From Stomorhina lunata (lineage: Eukaryota; Arthropoda; Insecta; Diptera; Rhiniidae), in assembly GCA_933228675.1 (NCBI GenBank), contig OW121740.1, positions 159,088,486 through 159,152,485 on the forward strand: 64,000 nucleotides of DNA. The letters are read 5' to 3'. The position numbers and the translations under genes were made by a program. Below the pieces are notes generated by a model, which saw nothing but the letters and a program-made list of their open reading frames with translations, was not told the DNA's origin and did not search any database. Shown in pieces: positions 1,972-62,965 of this stretch. Position 1 is the stretch's first letter, and every line of letters starts with the position of its first letter.

Positions 1972-2330
1972 AAATAAAGTTTAATATTTAGGCTTGGTTT
2001 TCTCTTTTTTTTTTGGTTTGGGTGAAATGGTTTGAAGTTTGAATGGTGGTTTCATTGGCGGTGGAACACGAGGTTCGATGATCATATTAAAAGAAATTTT
2101 GTTGATAGTATTATGACCTTTGTTAAAAAGTTTTGGAGGCATAGAAACTACAAGTGGGTGTGTGTAGACTAGATTAGCGTGTCTATATTTGCTTACATGT
2201 GAAATGAAAAAAATACATACAGTCGTGGGCAAAAATATGTAACAGCTTCTTAAGATTTTTAATAAATGGGATTTTTAATAAACATCAGCATTCGATTCTC
2301 ATTGAAATAAAAAATAAAAATTTTTCGACA
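1972..2330 (+). repeat. Direct repeat, copy 1 (left border of 29-bp array)
   Basis: This ~359-bp block matches 5059-5419 almost base for base, with scattered substitutions and one-base length changes in T/A runs. The two copies bracket the homogeneous 29-bp array. The minus strand of this copy holds an 83-codon frame (1981-2232) ending in a proline/lysine-rich tail. In copy 2 an extra base in an A/T run puts a stop right after the MPPKLF residues, so coding function is unlikely. It may be the single-copy edge of an older array that was duplicated together with repeats. Confidence 0.9.
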
Positions 2331-5058
2331 GAAACTTTTTGGTACAAAATTTTCCGATAGAAAATTTTCAGTACAAAATTTTTCGATAGAAAAATTTCGG
2401 TACAAAATTTTTCTATAGAAAATTTTCGGTACAAAATTTTTCTATAGAAAATTTTCGGTACAAAATTTTTCTATAGAAAATTTTCGGTACAAAATTTTTC
2501 TATAGAAAAATTTCGGTACAAAATTTTCCTATAGAAAAATTTCGGTACAAAATTTTTCTATAGAAAAATTACGGTACAAAATTTTTCTACAGAAAAATTT
2601 CGGTTCAAAATTTTTCTATAGAAAAATTTCGGTACAAAATTTTTCTATAGGAAAATTTCGGTACAAAATTTTTCTATAGAAAAATTTCGGTACAAAATTT
2701 TTCTATAGAAAAATTTCGGTACAAAATTTTTCTATAGAAAAATTTCGGTACAAAATTTTTCTATAGAAAAATTTCGGTACAAAATTTTTCTATAGAAAAT
2801 TTTCGGTACAAAATTTTTCTATAGAAAATTTTCGGTACAAAATTTTTCTATAGAAAATTTTCGGTACAAAATTTTTCTATAGAAAATTTTCGGTACAAAA
2901 TTTTTCTATAGAAAATTTTCGGTACAAAATTTTTCTATAGAAAATTTTCGGTACAAAATTTTTCTATAGAAAATTTTCGGTACAAAATTTTTCTATAGAA
3001 AATTTTCGGTACAAAATTTTTCTATAGAAAATTTTCGGTACAAAATTTTTCTATAGAAAATTTTCGGTACAAAATTTTTCTATAGAAAATTTTCGGTACA
3101 AAATTTTTCTATAGAAAATTTTCGGTACAAAATTTTTCTATAGAAAATTTTCGGTACAAAATTTTTCTATAGAAAATTTTCGGTACAAAATTTTTCTATA
3201 GAAAATTTTCGGTACAAAATTTTTCTATAGAAAATTTTGGGTACAAAATTTTTCTATAGAAAATTTTGGGTACAAACATTTTTTATAGAAAATTTTCGGT
3301 ACAAAATTTTTCTATAGAAAATTTTCGGTACAAAATTTTTCTATAGAAAATTTTCGGTACAAAAATTTTCTATAGAAAAATTTCGGTACAAAATTTTCCT
3401 ATAGAAAAATTTCGGTACAAAATTTTTCTATAGAAAAATTACGGTACAAAATTTTTCTACAGAAAAATTTCGGTTCAAAATTTTTCTATAGAAAAATTTC
3501 GGTACAAAATTTTTCTATAGAAAAATTTCGGTACAAAATTTTTCTATAGAAAAATTTCGGTACAAAATTTTTCTATAGAAAAATTTCGGTACAAAATTTT
3601 TCTATAGAAAAATTTCGGTACAAAATTTTTCTATAGAAAAATTTCGGTACAAAATTTTTCTATAGAAAATTTTCGGTACAAAATTTTTCTATAGAAAATT
3701 TTCGGTACAAAATTTTTCTATAGAAAATTTTCGGTACAAAATTTTTCTATAGAAAATTTTCGGTACAAAATTTTTCTATAGAAAATTTTCGGTACAAAAT
3801 TTTTCTATAGAAAATTTTCGGTACAAAATTTTTCTATAGAAAATTTTCGGTACAAAATTTTTCTATAGAAAATTTTCGGTACAAAATTTTTCTATAGAAA
3901 ATTTTCGGTACAAAATTTTTCTATAGAAAATTTTCGGTACAAAATTTTTCTATAGAAAATTTTCGGTACAAAATTTTTCTATAGAAAATTTTCGGTACAA
4001 AATTTTTCTATAGAAAATTTTCGGTACAAAATTTTTCTATAGAAAATTTTCGGTACAAAATTTTTCTATAGAAAATTTTCGGTACAAAATTTTTTTTTTC
4101 TATAGAAAATTTTCGGTACAAAATTTTTCTATAGAAAATTTTCGGTACAAAATTTTTTTTTTCTATAGAAAATTTTCGGTACAAAATTTTTCTATAGAAA
4201 ATTTTCGGTACAAAATTTTTCTATAGAAAATTTTCGGTACAAAATTTTTCTATAGAAAATTTTCGGTACAAAATTTTTCTATAGAAAATTTTCGGTACAA
4301 AATTTTTCTATAGAAAATTTTCGGTACAAAATTTTTCTATAGAAAATTTTCGGTACAAAATTTTTCTATAGAAAATTTTCGGTACAAAATTTTTCTATAG
4401 AAAATTTTCGGTACAAAATTTTTCTATAGAAAATTTTCGGTACAAAATTTTTCTATAGAAAATTTTCGGTACAAAATTTTTCTATAGAAAATTTTCGGTA
4501 CAAAATTTTTCTATAGAAAATTTTCGGTACAAAATTTTTCTATAGAAAATTTTCGGTACAAAATTTTTCTATAGAAAATTTTCGGTACAAAATTTTTCTA
4601 TAGAAAATTTTCGGTACAAAATTTTTCTATAGAAAATTTTCGGTACAAAATTTTTCTATAGAAAATTTTCGGTACAAAATTTTTCTATAGAAAATTTTCG
4701 GTACAAAATTTTTCTATAGAAAATTTTCGGTACAAAATTTTTCTATAGAAAATTTTCGGTACAAAATTTTTCTATAGAAAATTTTCGGTACAAAATTTTT
4801 CTATAGAAAATTTTCGGTACAAAATTTTTCTATAGAAAATTTTCGGTAAAAAATTTTTCTATAGAAAATTTTTGATACAAAATTTTTCTATCAAAAATTT
4901 TTGGTACAAAATTTTTCTGTAGAAAATTTTCGGTACAAAATTCTTCTATAGAAAATTTTCGGTACAAAATTTTTCTATAGAAAATTTTCGGTACAAAATT
5001 TTTCTAAAGAAAATTTTCGGTACAAAATTTTTCTATAGAAAATTTTCGGTACAAAATT
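2331..5058 (+). repeat. 29-bp minisatellite array, type A
   Basis: About 94 copies of a 29-bp unit: TTTTTCTATAGAAAATTTT followed by CGGTACAAAA. The core is a near-perfect palindrome centred on CTATAG, so each unit could form a ~10-bp hairpin. The variant with GAAAAATTTCGG occupies about 2390-2820 and again 3360-3660. Rare variants (TCCTATAG, ATTACGG, CTACAG, GGTTCAAA) occur in the same order near 2521-2610 and 3391-3480, exactly 870 bp (30 units) apart. That shows a block duplication inside the array. Two units with expanded T runs lie at 4081 and 4144. The right edge (about 4850-5050) is more variable. Confidence 0.97.
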
Positions 5059-13340: not shown

Positions 13341-14071
13341 TATACCCATATACATATTAGACCCACCTTTTAGTATAGCAATAGGCTTAGAATCACTTTC
13401 TGAGTCGATTTAGCGATGTCCGTCCGTCCGTCTGGCTGGATGGACCCCCATGTAAACCTTGTAATCAAAGTGCAGGTCGCAATTCTAAATATAATTTGAT
13501 GAAATTTTTCACAGATCATTTTTTTGATAATAAGACCATGACTATTGAAATTCGTCAAAATCGGTCCATTATTTAGGGTACCTCCCATAGGTCCCACTTC
13601 CCGGAATTGATATATTGGCCACAAATATCAATATTTTTTCACGAAATTTAAATCAAATACTGCTTATGTTAACCTTAATCACTGTACCAAATTTCGTTAA
13701 AATCGGTCCATATTTGACCATAGCTCCCATACAAACTTTTCTTAAAAAAAGCACTAAATGAGACAAACATCACTAAAACGCTTAAATCTGAAGATAATGG
13801 GAATTTTAAGTTTATTTTTTGCATACATAATTTTTGTTACAACTGTAATCAGTTTGCCAAATTTCGAGATAATCGGTCCATATTTGACCCTAGCTCTCAT
13901 ATAAGTCCAAATGTCGGAAGCAGCTTAAATATATAAGTTTTGAGAAAATGTTTGTATGATGGCAAAATTTAGCAAATATTTGTCTTTATACAGGAAAAAT
14001 AACACCTTCGACCTTAGTGGTGAGGGGTATCGTATGGTCGGGCTTGACCGATTATAGAACTTTCTTACTTG
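13341..14071 (-). mobile_element. Non-autonomous interspersed element, copy 1
   Basis: This ~730-bp block is the reverse complement of 62191-62965, with clear base-by-base similarity across most of its length. Read on the minus strand it starts with ACAAGTAAGAAAG, then a GGTC...GACC hairpin-like phrase, and runs through repeated 'tcaaatatggaccgatt' phrases. It has a (GTCY)n tract (13424-13441 on the plus strand) and ends near a GGGTATAA motif. There is no open frame beyond a spurious 84 codons, so it is non-autonomous. The (GTCY)n tract and GGGTATAA end recall the mini-me type elements described in Drosophila; that link is inference, and a Helitron relationship is also possible. Type B units resume directly on the right side. 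Confidence 0.75.
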
Positions 14072-23660: not shown

Positions 23661-26445
23661 ATATTTTAGTTTTATGTCTTAGTCTATGTCTTATTCTATG
23701 TCTTAGTCTATGTCTTAGTCTTAGTCTATGTCTTAGTCTATGTCTTAGTCTATGTCTTAGTCTATGTCTTAGTCTATGTCTTAGTCTATGTCTTAGTCTA
23801 TGTCTTAGTCTATGTCTTAGTCTATGTCTTAGTCTATGTCTTAGTCTATGTCTTAGTCTATGTCTTAGTCTATGTCTTAGTCTATGTCTTAGTCTATGTC
23901 TTAGTCTATGTCTTAGTCTATGTCTTAGTCTATGTCTTAGTCTATGTCTTAGTCTATGTCTTAGTCTATGTCTTAGTCTATGTCTTAGTCTATGTCTTAG
24001 TCTATGTCTTAGTCTATGTCTTAGTCTATGTCTTAGTCTATGTCTTAGTCTATGTCTTAGTCTATGTCTTAGTCTATGTCTTAGTCTATGTCTTAGTCTA
24101 TGTCTTAGTCTATGTCTTAGTCTATGTCTTAGTCTATGTCTTAGTCTATGTCTTAGTCTATGTCTTAGTCTATGTCTTAGTCTATGTCTTAGTCTATGTC
24201 TTAGTCTATGTCTTAGTCTATGTCTTAGTCTATGTCTTAGTCTATGTCTTAGTCTATGTCTTAGTCTATGTCTTAGTCTATGTCTTAGTCTATGTCTTAG
24301 TCTATGTCTTAGTCTATGTCTTAGTCTATGTCTTAGTCTATGTCTTAGTCTATGTCTTAGTCTATGTCTTAGTCTATGTCTTAGTCTATGTCTTAGTCTA
24401 TGTCTTAGTCTATGTCTTAGTCTATGTCTTAGTCTATGTCTTAGTCTATGTCTTAGTCTATGTCTTAGTCTATGTCTTAGTCTATGTCTTAGTCTATGTC
24501 TTAGTCTATGTCTTAGTCTATGTCTTAGTCTATGTCTTAGTCTATGTCTTAGTCTATGTCTTAGTCTATGTCTTAGTCTATGTCTTAGTCTATGTCTTAG
24601 TCTATGTCTTAGTCTATGTCTTAGTCTATGTCTTAGTCTATGTCTTAGTCTATGTCTTAGTCTATGTCTTAGTCTATGTCTTAGTCTATGTCTTAGTCTA
24701 TGTCTTAGTCTATGTCTTAGTCTATGTCTTAGTCTATGTCTTAGTCTATGTCTTAGTCTATGTCTTAGTCTATGTCTTAGTCTATGTCTTAGTCTATGTC
24801 TTAGTCTATGTCTTAGTCTATGTCTTAGTCTATGTCTTAGTCTATGTCTTAGTCTATGTCTTAGTCTATGTCTTAGTCTATGTCTTAGTCTATGTCTTAG
24901 TCTATGTCTTAGTCTATGTCTTAGTCTATGTCTTAGTCTATGTCTTAGTCTATGTCTTAGTCTATGTCTTAGTCTATGTCTTAGTCTATGTCTTAGTCTA
25001 TGTCTTAGTCTATGTCTTAGTCTATGTCTTAGTCTATGTCTTAGTCTATGTCTTAGTCTATGTCTTAGTCTATGTCTTAGTCTATGTCTTAGTCTATGTC
25101 TTAGTCTATGTCTTAGTCTATGTCTTAGTCTATGTCTTAGTCTATGTCTTAGTCTATGTCTTAGTCTATGTCTTAGTCTATGTCTTAGTCTATGTCTTAG
25201 TCTATGTCTTAGTCTATGTCTTAGTCTATGTCTTAGTCTATGTCTTAGTCTATGTCTTAGTCTATGTCATAGTCTATGTCTTAGTCTATGTCTTAGTCTA
25301 TGTCTTAGTCTATGTCTTAGTCTATGTCTTAGTCTATGTCTTAGTCTATGTCTTAGTCTATGTCTTAGTCTATGTCTTAGTCTATGTCTTAGTCTATGTC
25401 TTAGTCTATGTCTTAGTCTATGTCTTAGTCTATGTCTTAGTCTATGTCTTAGTCTATGTCTTAGTATATGTCTTAGTCTATGTCTTAGTCTATGTCTTAG
25501 TCTATGTCTTAGTCTATGTCTTAGTCTATGTATTAGTCTATGTCTTAGTCTATGTCTTAGTCTATGTCTTAGTCTATGTCTTAGTCTATTTCTTAGTCTA
25601 TGTCTTAGTCTATGTCTTAGTCTATGTCTTAGTCTATGTCTTAGTCTATGTCTTAGTCTATGTCTTAGTCTATGTCTTAGTCTATGTCTTAGTCTATGTC
25701 TTAGTCTATGTCTTAGTCTATGTCTTAGTCTATGTCTTAGTCTATGTCTTAGTCTATGTCTTAGTCTATGTCTTAGTCTATGTCTTAGTCTATGTCTTAG
25801 TCTATGTCTTAGTCTATGTCTTAGTCTATGTCTTAGTCTATGTCTTAGTCTATGTCTTAGTCTATGTCTTAGTCTATGTCTTAGTCTATGTCTTAGTCTA
25901 TGTCTTAGTCTATGTCTTAGTCTATGTCTTAGTCTATGTCTTAGTCTATGTCTTAGTCTATGTCTTAGTCTATGTCTTAGTCTATGTCTTAGTCTATGTC
26001 TTAGTCTATGTCTTAGTCTATGTCTTAGTCTATGTCTTAGTCTATGTCTTAGTCTATGTCTTAGTCTATGTCTTAGTCTATGTCTTAGTCTATGTCTTAG
26101 TCTATGTCTTAGTCTATGTCTTAGTCTATGTCTTAGTCTATGTCTTAGTCTATGTCTTAGTCTATGTCTTAGTCTATGTCTTAGTCTATGTCTTAGTCTA
26201 TGTCTTAGTCTATGTCTTAGTCTATGTCTTAGTCTATGTCTTAGTCTATGTCTTAGTCTATGTCTTGGTCTATGTCTTAGTCTATGTCTTAGTCTATGTC
26301 TTAGTCTATGTCTTAGTCTATATCATAGTCTATGTCTTAGTCTATGTCTTAGTCTATATCTTAGTCTATGTCTTAGTCTATGTCTTAGTCTACGACTTAG
26401 TCTATGTCTAAGAATATGTGTTAGTCTATGTCTTAGTCTTTAAAT
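23661..26445 (+). repeat. 12-bp tandem array, about 230 copies
   Basis: The unit is TCTATGTCTTAG. After an irregular start (a 6-bp partial unit near 23717), the stretch from about 23724 to 25268 is uninterrupted: about 128 identical copies. Single-base variants appear at 25269, 25466, 25532, 25590 and 26267, and then accumulate rapidly to the right end (26314-26440). Two plus-strand frames have no stop (repeating LCLS and YVLV), but neither contains a start codon; the frame with ATG stops two codons later. I read this as a satellite, not a gene. Perfect arrays of this size are often collapsed or over-extended in assemblies, so the copy number is uncertain. Confidence 0.98.
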
Positions 26446-28145: not shown

Positions 28146-31100
28146 ATTGAATATAGTCGACTAGATTATAGCCGGCTAGACTTATAGTCAGATAGACTTA
28201 TAGTCGGCTAGATTATAGTCGACTACACTATAGTCGACTAGACTATAGTCGACTTGACTATAGTCAACTAGACTATAGTGTACTATACTATAGTCGACTA
28301 GACTATAGTCGACTAGACTATAGTCGACTAGACTATAGTCGACTAGACTATATTCGACTAGACTTTAGTCGACTAGACTATAGTCGACTAGACTATAGTC
28401 GACTAGGCTATAGTCAACTAGACTATAGTCGCCTAGACTATAGTCAACTAGACTATAGTCGACTGGACTATAGTCGACTGGACTATAATCGACTGGACTA
28501 TAGTCGACTGGCCTATAGTCAACTGGACTACCGTTGACCAGACTATCGCCGACTGGACTATAGTCGACTGGACTACCGTCGACCAGACTATCGTCGACTG
28601 GACTATAGTCGACTGGAATATAGTCGACTCGACTATAGTCGAGTGGACAATAGTCGACTAGACTATAGTCGAGTGGACAATAGTCGACTAGACTATAGTC
28701 GAGTGGACAATAGTCGACTAGACTATAGTCGACTGGACTATAGTCGACTAGACTATAGTCGACTGGACTATACTCGACTAGACTATAGTCGACTGTACTA
28801 TAGTCGACTGTACTATAGTCGACTAGATTATAGTCGACTAGACTATAGTCGACTAGAATATAGTCGACTTGACTATAGTCGACTAGAATATAGTCTACTA
28901 GACTATAGTCGACTGGACTATAGTCGACTAGACTATAGCCGACTGGACTATAGTCGACTAGAATATAGTCGACTAGACTATAGTCGACTAGACTATAGTC
29001 GACTAGACTATAGTCGACTAGACTATAGCCGACCAGACTATCGTCGACTGGACTATAGTCGACTGGACTACCGTCGACCAGACTATCGTCGACTGGACTA
29101 AAGTCGACTGGAATATAGTCGACTCGACTATAGTCGAGTGGACAATAGTCGACTAGACTATAGTCGACTGGACTATAGTCGACTAGACTATAGTCGACTG
29201 GACTATACTCGACTAGACTATAGTCGACTGTACTATAGTCGACTGGACTATAGTCGACTAGATTATAGTCGACTAGACTATAGTCGAATAGAATATAGTC
29301 GCTTGACTATAGTCGACTAGAATATAGTCTACTAGACTATAGCCGACTGGACTATAGTCGTCTAGAATATAGTCGACTAGACTATAGTCGACTGGACTAT
29401 ACTCGACTAGACTATAGTCGACTGGACTATAGTCGACTGGACTATAGTCGACTGGACTATAGTCGACTGGACTATAGTCGACTGGACTATAGTCGACTGG
29501 ACTATAGTCGACTAGACAATAGTCGACTGGACTATACTCGACTAGACTTTAGTCGACTGGACTAAAGTCGACTGGAATATAGTATACTAGACTAAAGTCG
29601 ACTAGAATATAGTCGACTAGACTATAGTCAACTGGACTATAGTAAACTAGACTATAGTCGACTAGAATATAGTTGACTAGACTATAGTCTACTAGAATAT
29701 AATCGAATGGACTATAGTCGACTGGACTAAAGTCGACTGGACAATAGTTGACTGGACTATAGTCGACTGGACTATAGTCGACCGGACTATAGTCGACTGG
29801 ATTATAGACGACTGGACTATAGACGACTGGACTATAGTCGACTGGACTAGAGTCGACTCGACTATAATCGACTGAACTATAGTCGACTGGGCTAGAGTCG
29901 ACTAGACTATAGTCGACTAGAATATAGTCGACTAGACTATAGTCGACTAGAATATAGTCGACTAGACTATAGTCAACTGGACTATAGTAAACTAGACTAT
30001 AGTCGACTAGAATATAGTTGACTAGACTATAGTCTACTAGAATATAATCGACTGGACTATAATCGACTGGACTATAATCGACTGGACTATAATCGACTGG
30101 ACTATAGTCGACTGGACTATAGTCGACTGGACTATAGTCGACTAGACTATAGTCGACTGGACTATAGTCGACTGGACTATAGTCGACTGGACTATAGTCG
30201 ACTGGACTATAGTCGACTGGACTATAGTCGACTGGACTATAGTCGACTGGACTATAGTCGACTGGACTATAGTCGACCGGGCAATAGTCGACTGGACTAT
30301 AGTCGACTGGACTATAGTCGACTGGACTATAGTCGACCGGGCTATAGTCGACTGGACTATAGTCGACTGAACTATAGTCGACTGGACTATAGTCGACTGG
30401 ACTATAGTCGACCGGGCTATAGTCGACTGGACTATAGTCGACTGGACTATAGTCGACTGGACTATAGTCGACTGGACTATAGTCGACTGGACTATAGTCG
30501 ACAGGACTATAGTCGACTGGACTATAGTCGACAGGACTATAGTCGACCGGTCTATAGTCTACTGGACTATAGTCGACTGGACTATAGTCGACTGGACTAT
30601 AGTCGACTGGACTATAGTCGACTGGACTATAGTCGACTGGACTATAGTCGACTGGACTATAGTCGACTGGACTATAGTCGACTGGACTATAGTCGACTGG
30701 ACTATAGTCGACTGGACTATAGTTGACTGGACTATAGTCGACTGGACTATAGTCGACTGGACTATAGTCGACTGGACTATAGTCGACTGGACTATAGTCG
30801 ACTGGACTATAATCGACTGGACTACCGTCGACCAGACTATCGTCGACTGGACTATAGCCGACTGGACTATAGTCGACTGGACTATAGTCTAGTGGACAAT
30901 AGTCGACTAGACTATAGTCGACTGGACTATAGTCGACCAGACTATCGTCGACTGGACTATAGTCGACTGGAATATAGTCGACTGGACTATAGTCTAGTGG
31001 ACAATAGTCGACTAGACTATAGTCAACTGGACTACCGTCGACCAGACTATCGTCGACTGGACTATAGTCGACTGGAATATAGTCGACTGGACTATAGTCT

Positions 31101-34010
31101 AGTGGACAATAGTCGACTAGACTATAGTCGACTGGACTATAGTCGACTGGACTATAGTCGACTGGACTATAGTCGACTGGACTATAGTCGACTGGACTAT
31201 AATCGACTGGACTACCGTCGACCAGACTATCGTCGACTGGACTATAGCCGACTGGACTATAGTCGACTGGACTATAGTCGACTAGACTATATTCGACTAG
31301 ACTATAGTCAACTAGACTATAGTCAACTAGACTATAGTCGACTAGACTATAGTCGACTGGACTATAGTCGACTGGACTAAAGTCGACTGGACTATAGTCG
31401 ACTGGACTATAGTCGACTGGACTATAGTCGACTGGACTATAGTCGACTGGACTATAATCGACTGGACTATAGTCGACTGGACTATAGTCAACTGGACTAT
31501 AGTCGAATGGACTATAGTCAACTGGACTACCGTCGACCAGACTATCGTCGACTGGACTATAGTCGACTGGAATATAGTCGACTGGACTATAGTCTAGTGG
31601 ACAATAGTCGACTAGACTATAGTCGACTGGACTATAGTCGACTGGACTATAGTCGACTGGACTATAGTCGACTGGACTATAGTCGACTGGACTATAATCG
31701 ACTGGACTATAGTCGACTGGACTATAGTCAACTGGCCTATAGTCGAATGGACTATAGTCAACTGGACTACCGTCGACCAGACTATCGTCGACTGGACTAT
31801 AGTCGACTGGAATATAGTCGACTGGACTATAGTCTAGTGGACAATAGTCGACTAGACTATAGTCGACTGGACTGTAGTCGACTAGACTATAGTCGACTGG
31901 ACTATAGTCGACTAGACTATAGTCGACTGGACTATACTATACTCGACTAGACTAGAATATAGTCGACTAGACTATAGTCGACTAGAATATAGTCGACTTG
32001 ACTATAGTCGACTAGAATATAGTCGACTAGACTATAGTCGACTGGACTATAGTCGACTAGAATATAGTCGACTAGACTATAGGGGACTGGACTATACTCG
32101 CCTAGACTATAGTCAACTAGACTATAGTGTGCTAGACTATAGTCGACTAGACTATATTCGACTAGACTATATTCGACTAGACTATAGTCGACTAGACTAT
32201 AGTCGACTAGGCTATAGTCAACTAGACTATAGTCAACTAGACTATAGTCAACTAGACTATAGTCGACTGGACTATAGTCGACTGGACTATAGTCGACTGG
32301 ACTATAATCGACTGGACTATAGTCGACTGGACTATAGTCAACTGGACTATAGTCGACTGGACTATAGTCGACTGGACTATAGTCAACCGGACTACCGTCG
32401 ACCAGGCTATCGTCGACTGGACTATAGTCGACTGGAATATATTCGACTGGACTATGGTCTAGTGGACAATAGTCGACTAGACTATAGTCGACTAGACTAT
32501 AGTCGACTGGACTATACTCGACTAGACTATAGTCAACTAGACTATAGTGTGCTAGACTATAGTCGACTAGAATATAGTCGACTAGACTATAGTCGACTAG
32601 AATATAGTCGACTTGACTATAGTCGACTAGAATATAGTCGACTAGACTATAGTCGACTGGACTATAGTCGGCTAGAATATAGTCGACTAAACTATAGTCG
32701 ACTGGACTATACTCGACTAGGCTATAGTCGACTGGACTTTAGTCGACTGGACTATAGTCGACTGGACTATAGTCGACTGGACTATAGTCGACCGGGCTAT
32801 AGTCGACTGGACTATAGTCGACCGGGCTATAGTCGACTGGACTATAGTCGACTGGACTATAGTCGACTGGACTATAGTCGACTGGACTATAGTCGACTGG
32901 ACTATAGTCGACTGGACTATAGTCAACTGGACTATAGTCGACTGGACTATAGTCGACTGGACTATAGTCGACTGGACTATAGTCTACTGGACTATAGTCG
33001 ACTGGACTATAGTCGACTGGACTATAGTCGACTGGACTATAGTCGACTGGACTATAGTCGACTGGACTATAGTCGACCGGGCTATAGTCGACTGGACTAT
33101 AGTCGACTGGACTATAGTCGAGTGGACTATAGTCGACCGGGCTATAGTCGACTGGACTATAGTCGACTGGACTATAGTCGACAGGACTATAGTCGACTGG
33201 ACTATAGTCGACAGGACTATAGTCGACCGGGCTATAGTCTACTGGACTATAGTCGACTGGACTATAGTCGACTGGACTATAGTCGACTGGACTATAGTCG
33301 ACTGGACTATAGTCGACTGGACTATAGTTGACTGGACTATAGTCGACTGGACTATAGTCGACTGGACTATAGTCGACTGGACTATAGTCGACTGGACTAT
33401 AGTCGACTGGACTATAGTCGACTGGACTATAGTCGACTGGACTATAGTCGACTGGACTATAGTCGACTGGACTATAGTCGACTGGACTATAGTCGACTGG
33501 ACTATAGTCGACTGGACTATAGTCGACTGGACTATAGTCGACTGGACTATAGTCGACTGGACTATAGTCGACTGGACTATAGTTGACTGGACTATAGTCG
33601 ACTGGACTATAGTCGACTGGACTATAGTCGACTGGACTATAGTCAACTAGACTGTAGTCGACTAGACTATAGTCGACTAGACTATAGTCGACTAGACTAT
33701 AGTCGACTTCACTATAGTCGACTAGACTATAGTCGACTAGACTGTAGTCGACTAGACTATAGTCGACTAGACTATAGTCGACTAGACTATAGTCGACTAG
33801 ACTATAGTCGACTAGACTATAGTCGACTAGACTATAGTCGACTAGACTATAGTCGACTATAACATAGTCGACTAGACTATAGTCGACTAGACTGTAGTCG
33901 TCTAAGTCAAGAGTCTACTTGACTATTGTCGACTGGACTAAAGTAGAGATAAGACTATAATCTTAAGTAGACTCTAGTAGATATTAGACTTAGGTCGGAG
34001 TAGACTTAAG
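28146..34010 (+). repeat. 15-bp self-complementary tandem array, about 380 copies
   Basis: The unit is GACTATAGTCGACTG or GACTATAGTCGACTA. GACTATAGTC and AGTCGACT are both perfect palindromes, so the strand is almost its own complement and a SalI site (GTCGAC) occurs in most units. The CTAGAC form dominates the left part and the extreme right (33640-33905). The CTGGAC form dominates the interior, with its most uniform block at 33241-33640. Both ends degrade. Because 15 is a multiple of three, long frames are open on both strands: (DYSRL)n forward, up to 400 codons at 32129-33331, and (TIVQS)n in reverse. These have no non-repeat domain and I do not call them genes. Confidence 0.97.
31454..31930 (+). 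repeat. 240-bp duplication within the 15-bp array
   Basis: A string of private variants recurs 240 bp (16 units) apart: AATCGACTGG, AGTCAACTGG, AGTCGAATGG, ACTACCGTCGACCAG, ACTATCGTCGAC, GGAATATAG, AGTCTAGTGGACAATAG. The ACCGTCGACCAG marker sits at 31529 and 31769. The same marker is also at 28575, 29070, 30824, 31034 and 31214, all separated by multiples of 15 within each neighbouring set. Confidence 0.85.
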
Positions 34011-46905: not shown

Positions 46906-47623
46906 TTAAATTATGGAAAATTTTTCCAAAAAATTTTTATTTTATAGAAAAACTTTCAAAACTGTCGTATTTTTAAAGGAAATTTTTCAAAAATTTCTTA
47001 TTTTTATAGGAAATTTTTCAAAATGTCTTTATTTATTTATGGGAAATTTTTCAAAAATTTCTTATTTTTATAGAAAATTTTTCAAAAATTTCTTATTTTT
47101 ATAAGAAATTTTTAAAAAATTTATTATTTTTATGGGAAATTTTTCAAAAAATTTCTTATTTTTAAAAAATTTTTCAAAAATTTCTTATTTGTTTAGGAAA
47201 TTTTTCAAAAATTTCTTATTTTTATAAGAAACTTTTCAACAATTTCTTATTTTTATAGGAATTTTTTCAAAAATTTATTATTTTTATAGGAAATTTTTCA
47301 AAAATTTCTTATTTTTATAGGAAATTTTTCAAAAATTTCTTATTTTTATAAGAAATTTTTCAAAAATTTCTTATTTTTATAGGAACCTTTTTTAATAATT
47401 TCTTATTTTTATAGTAACATTTTTTAATAATTTCTTATTTTTAAAGAAATTTTATTTTCATATGAAAGTTTTCAAGATTTTCTTGCTTATCTGGGAAATT
47501 TTTCAAGAATGTCTAAATTTTATATGAAATATTTAAAAATTTCCTATTAAGAAGTTCTTCAAAAATTTTGTATTTTCATACGAAATTTTTTCAAAAGTCT
47601 TATTTTTATAGAAAAATTTTTAC
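46906..47623 (-). repeat. Type C array, inverted orientation
   Basis: Regular 31-bp units (for example 47281 and 47312 start identical TTTTTATAG phrases). The array is interrupted on its right side by the foldback element and resumes at about 48254, so 46906-49165 was probably one array before the insertion. Confidence 0.93.
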
Positions 47624-47658
47624 CAAAAAATAAAAAAATAGTCGGGATGTAAATATTA

Positions 47659-47920
47659 TTCAAAAAAAAGAGTATTCGCATTTGATCCCAGATCTGTTAC
47701 ATTAATTATTAATGTAACAGACCAATTTATTGATAAAAAGCCAAATTGATAAAAAGCCAAAAATGCTCTTCAGGAGGATTATCCCCAATTTAGACAGATC
47801 GAAAACGTCGCATTATTACTAAATTTACAAACATAACTTTTAAGAATTATGTTCATAAACCAAAAGTAAAAACGTAGATTATCGACTGAAAAAAAACAAA
47901 CATTTTTCAGTTTTCATCTA
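47659..47920 (-). repeat. Left inverted arm (hammerhead truncated)
   Basis: Complement of 47956-48253 with few mismatches. It carries the marker CTCTTCAGGAGGATTATCCC at 47766, the complement of the 5' part of the hammerhead. The next 51 nt of the right arm (48111-48161) have no counterpart here. A local duplication of GATAAAAAGCCAAATT (about 16 bp, near 47730-47752) is private to this arm. A 27-nt near-palindrome lies at 47694-47720. Confidence 0.93.
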
Positions 47921-47955
47921 CCTTCACTTCCATTCTTGCTGAAGCCGTCGGCTAC

Positions 47956-48253
47956 TAGATGAAAACTGAAAAATGTTTGTTTTTGTTCAGTCGATAATCT
48001 ACGCTTTTACTTTTGGTTTATGAACATAATTCTTAAAAGTTATGTTTGTAAATTTAGTAATAATGCGAGGTTTTCGATCTGTCTAAATTGGGGATAATCC
48101 TCCTGAAGAGATGGCTTAACCAACCATCGAAACGCGTCGAGGAATTTGGTTTCTCCGCAAACATTTTTTGGCTTTTTATCAATAAATTGGTCTGTTACAT
48201 TAATAATTAATGTAACAGATTTGGGATCAAATGCGAATACTCTTCTTTTTGAA
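47956..48253 (+). repeat. Right inverted arm (hammerhead intact)
   Basis: The longer arm. It opens with TAGATGAAAACTGAAAAATG and ends with AATACTCTTCTTTTTGAA. It contains the hammerhead motif at 48098-48143 and the complementary 27-nt near-palindrome at 48192-48218. Confidence 0.93.
48098..48143 (+). ncRNA. Type I hammerhead self-cleaving ribozyme
   Basis: All core elements are in order. Stem I 5' strand TCCTC (48098-48102). Core CTGAAGA (48103-48109; position 7 may be any base). Stem II GATGG (48110-48114) with a 9-nt loop and CCATC (48124-48128), five perfect pairs. GAA core (48129-48131). Very short stem III ACG/CGT (48132-48137) with no loop. Cleavage base C at 48138. Stem I 3' strand GAGGA (48139-48143), five perfect pairs. 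Predicted cleavage is between 48138 and 48139. A minimal stem III is known from hammerheads of Penelope-like elements and retrozymes, where the active form is often a dimer. Activity is inferred, not shown. Confidence 0.82.
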
Positions 48254-49165
48254 GAAAAATTTTTACTTTATAAACATTTTTTTCAAAAATTTCTTATTTT
48301 TCTAGGAAATTTTTTAAAAATTTCATATTTTCAAAGGAAATTTTTCAAAAATTTCTTATTTTTATAGGTAGTTTTTTAAAAATTTCTTAAATTTATAGGA
48401 AATTTTTCAAAAATGTTCTTACGTTTATAAAAAATTTTTAAAAATTCTTTTTTTTATTTTTATAGGAAGTTTTTCAAGAAATTTTTCAAAAATTACTTGT
48501 TTTTTTTTTTGATAGAAAATTTTTCAAAAATTTCTTATTTTTAAAGAAATTTTTCAAAAATTTCTTATTTTTTAAGAAATTTTTCAAAAATTTCTTATTT
48601 TTAAAGAAATTTTTCAAAAATTTCTTATTTTTTAAGAAATTTTTCAAAAATTTCTTATTTATTAAGAAATTTTTCAAAAATGTGTTATTTTTTAAGAAAT
48701 TTTTCAAAAATTTCTTATTTTTTAAGAAATTTTTCAAAAATTCCTTATTTTTTAAGAAATTTTTCAAAAATTTCTTATTTTTATAGGAAATTTGTCAAAA
48801 ATTTCTTATTTTTATAGGAAATTTTTAAAAAATTTCTCATTTTTATAGGAAATTTTTCAAAAATTTCTTATTTTTGTAGAAAATTTTTTAAAAATTTCTT
48901 ATTTTTATAGGAACTTTTTCAAAAATGTCTTTTTTTATATGAAATTTTTCAAAAATTTCTTATTTTTGTAGGAAATTTTTCAAAAATTTCTTATTTTTAT
49001 AGGAAATTTTTCAAAAATTTCTTACTTTTATTGAAAATTTTTCAAAAATTTTTAATATTTATAGGAAATTTTTTGTAAAATTCTTATTTTTATAGGAAAT
49101 TAAAAAAAATGTTTATTTTTATAAAAATTTTTTCAAAAATTTCTTTTTTATATAGGAAAATGTTC
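48254..49165 (-). repeat. Type C array, inverted, resumes after insertion
   Basis: Same units as 46906-47623. At 48530-48775 there is a sub-array with an exact 30-bp period (TTTTTCAAAAATTTC, then TTATTTTTTAAGAAA). Because 30 is a multiple of three it leaves a minus-strand frame of repeated KNKKFLKNFL (48486-48767), which is not evidence of a gene. Confidence 0.94.
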
Positions 49166-62190: not shown

Positions 62191-62965
62191 ATAACAAGTA
62201 AGAAAGTGTTATAGTCGGTCAAGCCCGACCATACGATACCCTTCACCACTAAGGTCAAAGGTGTTCTTTTTCCTGTATAAAGACAAATATTTGCTAAATT
62301 TTGCCTTCATACAAACATAAATATTCTCAAAACTTATACATTTAAGGTGTTTTCGTCATTTGGACTTATATGAGAGCTAGGGTCAAATGTGGACCAATTA
62401 TCTCGAAATTTGGCAAATTGATTACAGTTGTTACAAAAATTATGTATAAAAATAAAATAAACTTCAATTACTCTTCGGATTTACGAGCGTTTTAGTGAAT
62501 TTTGTCCCATTTAGTGCGTTTTGAGAAAAGAGTTTGTATGGGAGCTATGGTCAAATGTGGACCGATTGTGGAACGAAATTTGGTACAGTGATTTAGATTT
62601 ACAAAAGCAGTATTTGTTTTAAATTTCATAAAAAAAATATTGATTTTTGTTTCTAATATATCAATTCCGGGAAGTGGGACCTATGGGAGGTACCATAAAT
62701 AATGGACCGATTTTGACGAATTTCAATAATCATAATCAAAAAAATGATCTGTGCCAAATTTTATCAAATTATCTTTAGAATTGCGACCTGTAGTTTGATT
62801 ACATGGTTTACATGGTGGTCCAGCCAGCCAGTCAGACGGACGGACGGGCATCGCTAAATCGACTCAGAAAGTGATTCTAAGCCTATTGGTATACTAAAAG
62901 ACAAATATTTCTATGCGTTACATACTTATAATACCCTTTCCACCTATGGTGTTGAAGGGTATAAA
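62191..62965 (+). mobile_element. Non-autonomous interspersed element, copy 2
   Basis: Inverted copy of 13341-14071. It starts ACAAGTAAGAAAG, has a GGTC-AAGCC-CGACC phrase that can fold, repeated 'aaatgtggaccgatt' phrases, a CCAGCCAGCCAGTCAGACGG (GTCY) tract at 62820-62848, and ends GAAGGGTATAA near 62965. There is no open frame of note. Its position at the edge of the type H array, like copy 1 beside type B, suggests a preference for, or survival in, satellite borders. Class is uncertain (mini-me-like or Helitron-related). Confidence 0.75.

Follow-up and report, generated by a model that had tools for sequence, protein, structure and literature searches.

The stretch of Stomorhina lunata DNA analysed here (64 kb, hereafter the window) carries a 629-bp insertion at 47624-48252, held between 14-bp direct repeats and set in minisatellite DNA, much as the original prediction of a 0.6-kb element in a minisatellite array had it. 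The fold-back shape of this insertion arises because it consists of two head-to-head copies of a gene-less repeat. Its left and right units overlap by 6 nt at their junction, and its arms are complementary over 47766-47920/47956-48110 (98%) and 47651-47745/48167-48261 (95%). Some 51 nt, and with them most of the ribozyme, are missing from the left arm, which retains the 5′ strand of stem I together with CTGAAGAG; of the two arms, the right alone bears the complete motif. A 16-bp tandem duplication, ATTGATAAAAAGCCAA, is confined to the left arm, where it lies at 47729-47760 in the window, close to the ribozyme-removing deletion. The target duplication of this insertion scores 14, against an offset-control maximum of 15 in the surrounding minisatellite. 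The coordinates are collected in Table 1.

Table 1. Features of the insertion and of its hammerhead motif, in window positions
Feature	Position	Strand	Basis or remark
Left 14-bp target-site duplication, AGAAAAATTTTTAC	47610..47623		2 occurrences in 64 kb, each adjoining the insertion
Optional 36-nt 3′ tail of the left unit	47624..47659	-	same end point, to within 1 nt, in 20 further tail copies
Left unit, inverted, unit positions 87-428	47660..47961	-	~51 nt absent at 47765/47766
Right unit, unit positions 131-428, tail-less 3′ end	47956..48252	+	
Possible outer extension of stem I, GGGGA (48090-48094)/TCTCC (48152-48156), one G-U pair	48090..48156	+	sequence, pair counts
Minimal hammerhead ribozyme, 46 nt	48098..48143	+	expected (putative) cleavage between 48138 and 48139
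Stem I, 5′ strand TCCTC; partner GAGGA at 48139-48143	48098..48102	+	sequence
Core CTGAAGA	48103..48109	+	sequence
Stem II, GATGG/CCATC, with 9-nt loop CTTAACCAA	48110..48128	+	sequence
ACGCGT: A-U pair and palindromic CGCG loop; 6-bp helix in the dimer	48132..48137	+	sequence and co-folding
3′ hairpin near the tail-less end	48191..48219	+	second copy at 47693-47721
Right 14-bp target-site duplication, AGAAAAATTTTTAC	48253..48266		

Several other repeats share the window. A long homogeneous array of a 29-bp repeat occupies 2317-5058 (97% matches), a 12-bp array of TATGTCTTAGTC occupies 23673-26439 (98% matches), and a 15-bp array of TATAGTCGACTGGAC at 28152-33944 (89%) stays open for more than 400 codons as a repeat, with no evidence of a gene. 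Similar translations starting VPLPGIDIL, at ~13591-13758 (+) and 62495-62680 (-), probably mark two copies of yet another repeat.

A minimal hammerhead motif open at stem I

At the level of sequence, the motif at 48098-48143 is confirmed as a real hammerhead of the minimal kind, open at stem I. Its letters run TCCTC CTGAAGA GATGG CTTAACCAA CCATC GAA ACGCGT C GAGGA, and all the hallmarks of a hammerhead are present among them: CUGANGA, GAA, an A-U closing pair, UH before the cut, and stems I and II. A structural descriptor scanned over both strands of the window matched here and nowhere else. The original prediction had listed the core residues in order (CTGANGA, GAA and a C at 48138) along with perfect 5-bp stems I and II, TCCTC/GAGGA and GATGG/CCATC, and sequence and descriptor match agree with it on these points. 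It went astray at stem III, drawn as ACG/CGT: a 3-bp hairpin is impossible and was rejected, since ACGCGT leaves a loop of zero nucleotides. What is present instead is one A-U pair with a palindromic CGCG, the minimal kind of hammerhead linked to Penelope-like elements, as had been proposed.

Each shuffled window is expected to contain the bare core pattern, stripped of its stems, 1.29 times. When both stem I and stem II had to reach 5 bp or more (Watson-Crick), 3 matches turned up in 1500 dinucleotide shuffles of the 64-kb window, and shuffling the 629-bp element 20,000 times gave none; with the requirement relaxed to 4 bp, the 1500 window shuffles gave 27 matches. On the 5-bp counts, a chance origin of the motif was rejected. 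Among viral contigs, the palindrome had no match, and the hammerhead pattern occurred in at least 120 stretches; among the matches listed, one (L063) passed the stem filter.

Two further signs had been named beforehand as those to look for, a hammerhead covariance-model hit and compensatory changes among genomic copies, and neither appeared. The Rfam covariance models gave no hammerhead match at the curated gathering thresholds over the whole window, nor at E ≤ 10 over 47500-48500, and in 12 distinct rows, chosen from closely related copies at 1-3% divergence, no ribozyme pair had both of its sides altered. We do not think that either result is decisive, since the Rfam models are inferred to expect a stem III, and since the copies stand only 1-3% off their consensus.

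Copies, tails and inverted pairs across the genome

A search of the fly's own genome (728 Mb, 104 contigs), in which the best-scoring 40 of 2447 first-look candidates were followed up, yielded 130 matching pieces. The 40 copy places (L121-L125 and L128-L162; L126 and L127 duplicate the places of L125 and L123) are top-scoring rather than random and hold 46 insertions, a count from which L136 is excluded because its fetched stretch ends within the copy. The unit of the repeat is 464 nt long, 428 nt plus a 36-nt tail, as defined by head-to-tail joins through the tail. Such joins via the tail were seen at no fewer than five places (L130, L132, L133, L135 and L141), and head-to-tail joins occur at 12 of the 40 places (L122, L125, L130, L132, L133, L135, L136, L141, L149, L151, L158 and L161); the units so joined are connected through 128 nt that hold no ORF. 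The 3′ ends are fixed (464, or at or near 428, in unit positions); the 5′ ends are variable.

The 46-nt ribozyme is identical in 41 of the 57 copies that cover it, and at L125 two hammerheads lie in tandem on the same strand, 465 nt apart. None of 87 mapped 5′ ends falls within 3 nt of the ribozyme cut, and templates ending at the cut were thus not seen. Copies extend past the cut and past the unit boundary alike, as multimeric or circular templates would explain. Ten of the longer frames in the neighbourhood of copies contain neither a reverse transcriptase nor a GIY-YIG domain; an insect odorant-receptor frame lies near another copy of the unit.

Two side observations concern the variation among copies. 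At L129:886-1402, two successive units have the same 11-nt deletion inside the ribozyme, as if duplicated together, and a poly-C tract of variable length lies in the 5′ part of the unit at L130, L132, L134, L135 and L136. Insertions are also seemingly enriched in AAAATTTT repeats (28.6 versus 1.25 per kb, in 39 insertion flanks compared with 60 stretches from 20 background places), an enrichment not relied on because the copy-search query itself included 18 nt of such flank.

Inverted pairs account for 21 of the 46 insertions and terminate in a 3′ end on both outer sides. All 18 of the classifiable pairs follow a one-tail rule, with one tailed and one tail-less end; the three others (L122, L134 and the old L143 copy) each have one unclassifiable end. 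The remaining 25 insertions have a single orientation, 24 of them tail-less and one tailed, a ratio biased by a query that ended tail-less with 18 nt of flank. With 25 of the 46 not being inverted pairs, “foldback element,” the class to which this copy had originally been assigned, does not describe the family. A query with the tail gave 370 candidates, 40 of which were scored. Of these, 20 were fetched; their tails all stop at one point, to within 1 nt, beyond which 19 give way to non-unit DNA and one to the next unit, with none of the 20 running into an ORF.

Perfect repeats of 12-14 bp flank 11 of the 46 insertions, and flanking repeats score above all 40 offset controls at 13 of the 46, the window's copy not being among them. 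Two of 24 listed head-to-head junctions (L132 and L135) were dropped as self-matches of a palindrome. In the other 22, the units overlap by 1-6 nt at 14 junctions and by 38 nt at one, show no overlap at two, and stand 12-23 nt apart at five. The arms of one pair can share private variants: at L123, position 48122 is changed from A to T in both, and at L128 a private AGTCATTC lies near both 3′ ends. Such sharing fits one source RNA or self-priming. Taken as a set, the copies display the Penelope-like traits of one-tailed inverted units, target-site duplications and 5′ truncation.

Folding and conservation of the ribozyme

The bare 46-nt core is the only construct predicted to fold as a hammerhead, with all pairs at a probability of 0.64 or more, and two such cores, co-folded without constraint, form a double hammerhead at −27.3 kcal/mol. 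Addition of flanks (67 nt) favours another dimer fold, at −40.2 versus −34.1 kcal/mol for the double hammerhead, an argument against ready folding. For a transcript spanning the entire insertion, stems I and II have predicted pairing probabilities of 0.0 and below 0.01, respectively, and the 5′ half of the ribozyme is paired with the left arm. A competing hairpin also leaves the stems poorly paired in the linear unit and in the right arm by itself (161 nt), with predicted values of ~0.008 for stem I and 0.06-0.09 for stem II. The description of this ribozyme as intact therefore stands for its sequence and fails for its predicted folding within the insertion. Cleavage would depend on dimers, on protein help or on co-transcriptional folding. 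With one ribozyme deleted and the other predicted not to fold, this copy, doubled back and partly damaged, is probably an inactive insertion and is unlikely to cleave unaided. The circularised 464-nt unit (GC 32%), in turn, folds to −122.0 kcal/mol (z −6.9), a value that none of 100 shuffles matched or undercut.

An older subfamily of the unit, at 75-84% identity, is represented by pieces in L143, L147, L122, L153 and L148 (coordinates for four of them: L143:4366-4662; L122:2573-2638; L147:5527-5676; L153:1155-1320). It keeps the 3′ hairpin, 3 of whose 11 pairs change on both sides, and alike in L143 and L122, as judged by eye; the L147 copy is decayed at this hairpin. These compensatory pairs support a structured 3′ region near the inferred start of reverse transcription, not the ribozyme itself. 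As for the ribozyme, the L147 copy (81% identity) retains ACGCGTC and GATGG/CCATC, and the older copies that span it conserve it no better than their remainder at significance (Fisher p 0.11 for L143, 0.066 for L147, 0.57 for L153 and 0.21 for L148); the L122 piece does not span the ribozyme and hence stands outside this comparison. In young copies, ribozyme divergence is 2.0%, compared with 1.3% and 3.1% in the flanks, in a count that includes the deleted left arm and one misaligned row.

Mobilisation and comparison with published systems

A GIY-YIG profile search of the own genome returned 2 matches from 14 candidates. One (L204) we name, from its frames, an SLX1-like host gene. The other is a 143-aa frame (L203:3491-3922; Pfam GIY-YIG, E 1.1e-06), Penelope-type in our reading, with 30 relatives, two of which are named, as uncharacterized proteins of Haematobia irritans and Eurosta solidaginis; its element lies in the own genome at C2:141353790-141354419. 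About 160 nt downstream of this frame stands a second minimal hammerhead (L203:4080-4120). It resembles that of the window in being minimal and in having a self-complementary stem III (ATAT), and differs from it in sequence, in a U-C mismatch at the base of stem II and in a 4-bp stem I. The L203 element has no clear similarity to the 464-nt unit, and no autonomous Penelope-like element with the unit's 3′ end was found among the places and tails examined.

The element is best read as non-autonomous and retrozyme-like, moved by Penelope-type machinery. At a probability of roughly 0.6, the hammerhead is part of a retroelement that has no genes, is much repeated, has a unit of 464 nt and is inserted by a Penelope-like protein from multimeric or circular transcripts. 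The Penelope protein described in PMC11167929 cuts and extends both DNA strands, prefers AT-rich DNA, assists its own hammerhead, and starts reverse transcription at two internal sites, the interval between which is the tail. By the same route, a Penelope-like protein would here use multimeric or circular transcripts and make a staggered cut in AT-rich DNA; one strand would start reverse transcription at the tail site and the other at the tail-less site, and both cDNAs would be kept and joined, often at 1-6-nt overlaps, into an inverted pair, the “foldback.” The ribozyme would cleave tandem transcripts into single units, acting chiefly as a dimer or with protein assistance, as in the published elements. 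In favour of this explanation count the one-tail rule, the joins, the fixed 3′ and ragged 5′ ends, the flanking repeats, the tail endpoints, the circular fold, the double-hammerhead co-fold, the identical ribozymes, and the L203 frame with its second hammerhead. Against it count the missing autonomous match, the 0 of 87 5′ ends at the cut, the poor predicted stems in context, the account in PMC11167929 that the start site was no different between strands in vitro, and the fact that only 13 of 46 flanking repeats beat their offset controls. More tentative, at slightly under even odds, is the further proposal that such a Penelope-moved, retrozyme-like element obeys a strict rule of different start sites for the two strands of the break, leaving exactly one tail. 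Membership in the Penelope-like or the retrozyme family is not claimed, since the Penelope ORF is absent and the circle is only computed.

The units might instead be pLTR debris, pseudo-LTRs left by an autonomous Penelope-like element of which the form with the ORF has become rare, has diverged or has been lost, with the same integration and no independent retrozyme-like element. Penelope is known to have tailed pLTRs, both solo and inverted (PMC3846280), and Penelope-type coding sequence is present in this genome; yet the head-to-tail joins span 128 nt without an ORF, none of the 20 tails leads to one, the 10 longer frames near copies have no reverse transcriptase or GIY-YIG domain, and the lone Penelope-type element found bears no clear similarity to the unit, so that a debris origin is somewhat unlikely. 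A different doubt touches only how the pairs form. Self-priming of one cDNA or template, in place of priming from both strands of the break, was proposed for Penelope in PMC3846280, where it is favoured for inversions, and the private variants common to both arms in L123 and L128 speak for it. Shared variants follow equally from two templates of one source RNA, however, and simple self-copying alone does not yield tailed and tail-less ends in 18 of 18 pairs; we regard self-priming as unlikely.

Long target duplications and 5′ truncation occur with LINEs too. If a LINE or some other retrotransposon had moved a retrozyme or SINE, the copies would share these traits, and PMC7229834 leaves LINEs open as the retrozyme mobiliser; such an origin is nonetheless quite improbable, as the alternation of tail and no tail in inverted pairs is described for Penelope-like elements, and no poly-A or LINE-like 3′ end was noticed. 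That the hammerhead is a chance or dead look-alike is very improbable: the missing Rfam match, the poor predicted folding in context, and the lack of compensatory change and of significant extra conservation in older copies would suit it, but the shuffle controls oppose it, as does the retention of both motifs in the older L147 copy. The long inverted arms of this copy could equally evoke a foldback or MITE-type DNA transposon bearing the motif by accident, a reading that is extremely improbable given that 25 of 46 insertions are not inverted and that asymmetric ends, ragged 5′ ends and head-to-tail joins recur. A DNA foldback transposon was rejected, the copies being without two fixed symmetrical inverted termini.

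If a Penelope-moved, retrozyme-like element is indeed what lies here, it would provide sequence-level evidence for a proposed and unproven mobiliser of animal retrozymes. Autonomous Penelope-like elements are a strong candidate for that role according to PMC7229834, because the two kinds share hammerheads, form tandem copies and co-exist. A gene-less hammerhead element with the Penelope pattern of tails and inversions would make the link between retrozymes and Penelope testable in one fly genome, and the one-tail rule bears on the Penelope protein's use of its two starts of reverse transcription. The kind is already known (Penelope hammerheads, retrozymes and their proposed link), and the combination looks new: no report of Penelope tails on a retrozyme-like element, or of such a calyptrate-fly family, was seen among the papers listed in full-text searches on these subjects.

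Among published systems, Penelope-like elements share with the unit a minimal hammerhead with a short palindromic stem III (PMC3846280, PMC11167929), partial tandem and inverted head-to-head units with an optional 30-40-nt tail on one inverted unit, and 5′ truncation, target duplications and AT-rich targets (PMC3846280, PMC11167929). In PMC3846280, Penelope pLTRs lie in partial tandem or are inverted head to head, and one of the inverted pLTRs bears a tail of 31 bp; the target duplications in the cases given there are 8, 9 and 10 bp, compared with 12-14 bp here. A dimer requirement is described, together with the minimal variants of Penelope-like elements, in PMC6466107, PMC7761336, PMC6155905 and PMC3088659. 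The unit departs from these elements in having no ORF between joined units and no reverse transcriptase or GIY-YIG ORF behind 20 tails.

Animal non-LTR retrozymes, for which strongly self-paired units are described (PMC7229834), are likewise gene-less, low in GC (32% here) and self-paired, with an open-stem-I hammerhead, tandem joins and long target duplications. Their units measure ~170-400 nt in that source, as opposed to 464 nt here; the joins here are few and partial, with no long arrays at the places seen, the hammerhead is minimal where theirs is canonical, a Penelope tail is present, and the circle is a computed fold only. HHR_Amex1 of newt and axolotl, a motif with conserved loop 1/loop 2 contacts, has the same one-pair stem III with a palindromic tetraloop and the same expected action as a dimer, the axolotl form being described as poor as a monomer and better as a dimer (PMC7229834), whereas the repeat here differs from those of the newt and axolotl satellite hammerheads. 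The match is not to a shared protein; it is to the published Penelope pattern, with a stricter end rule.
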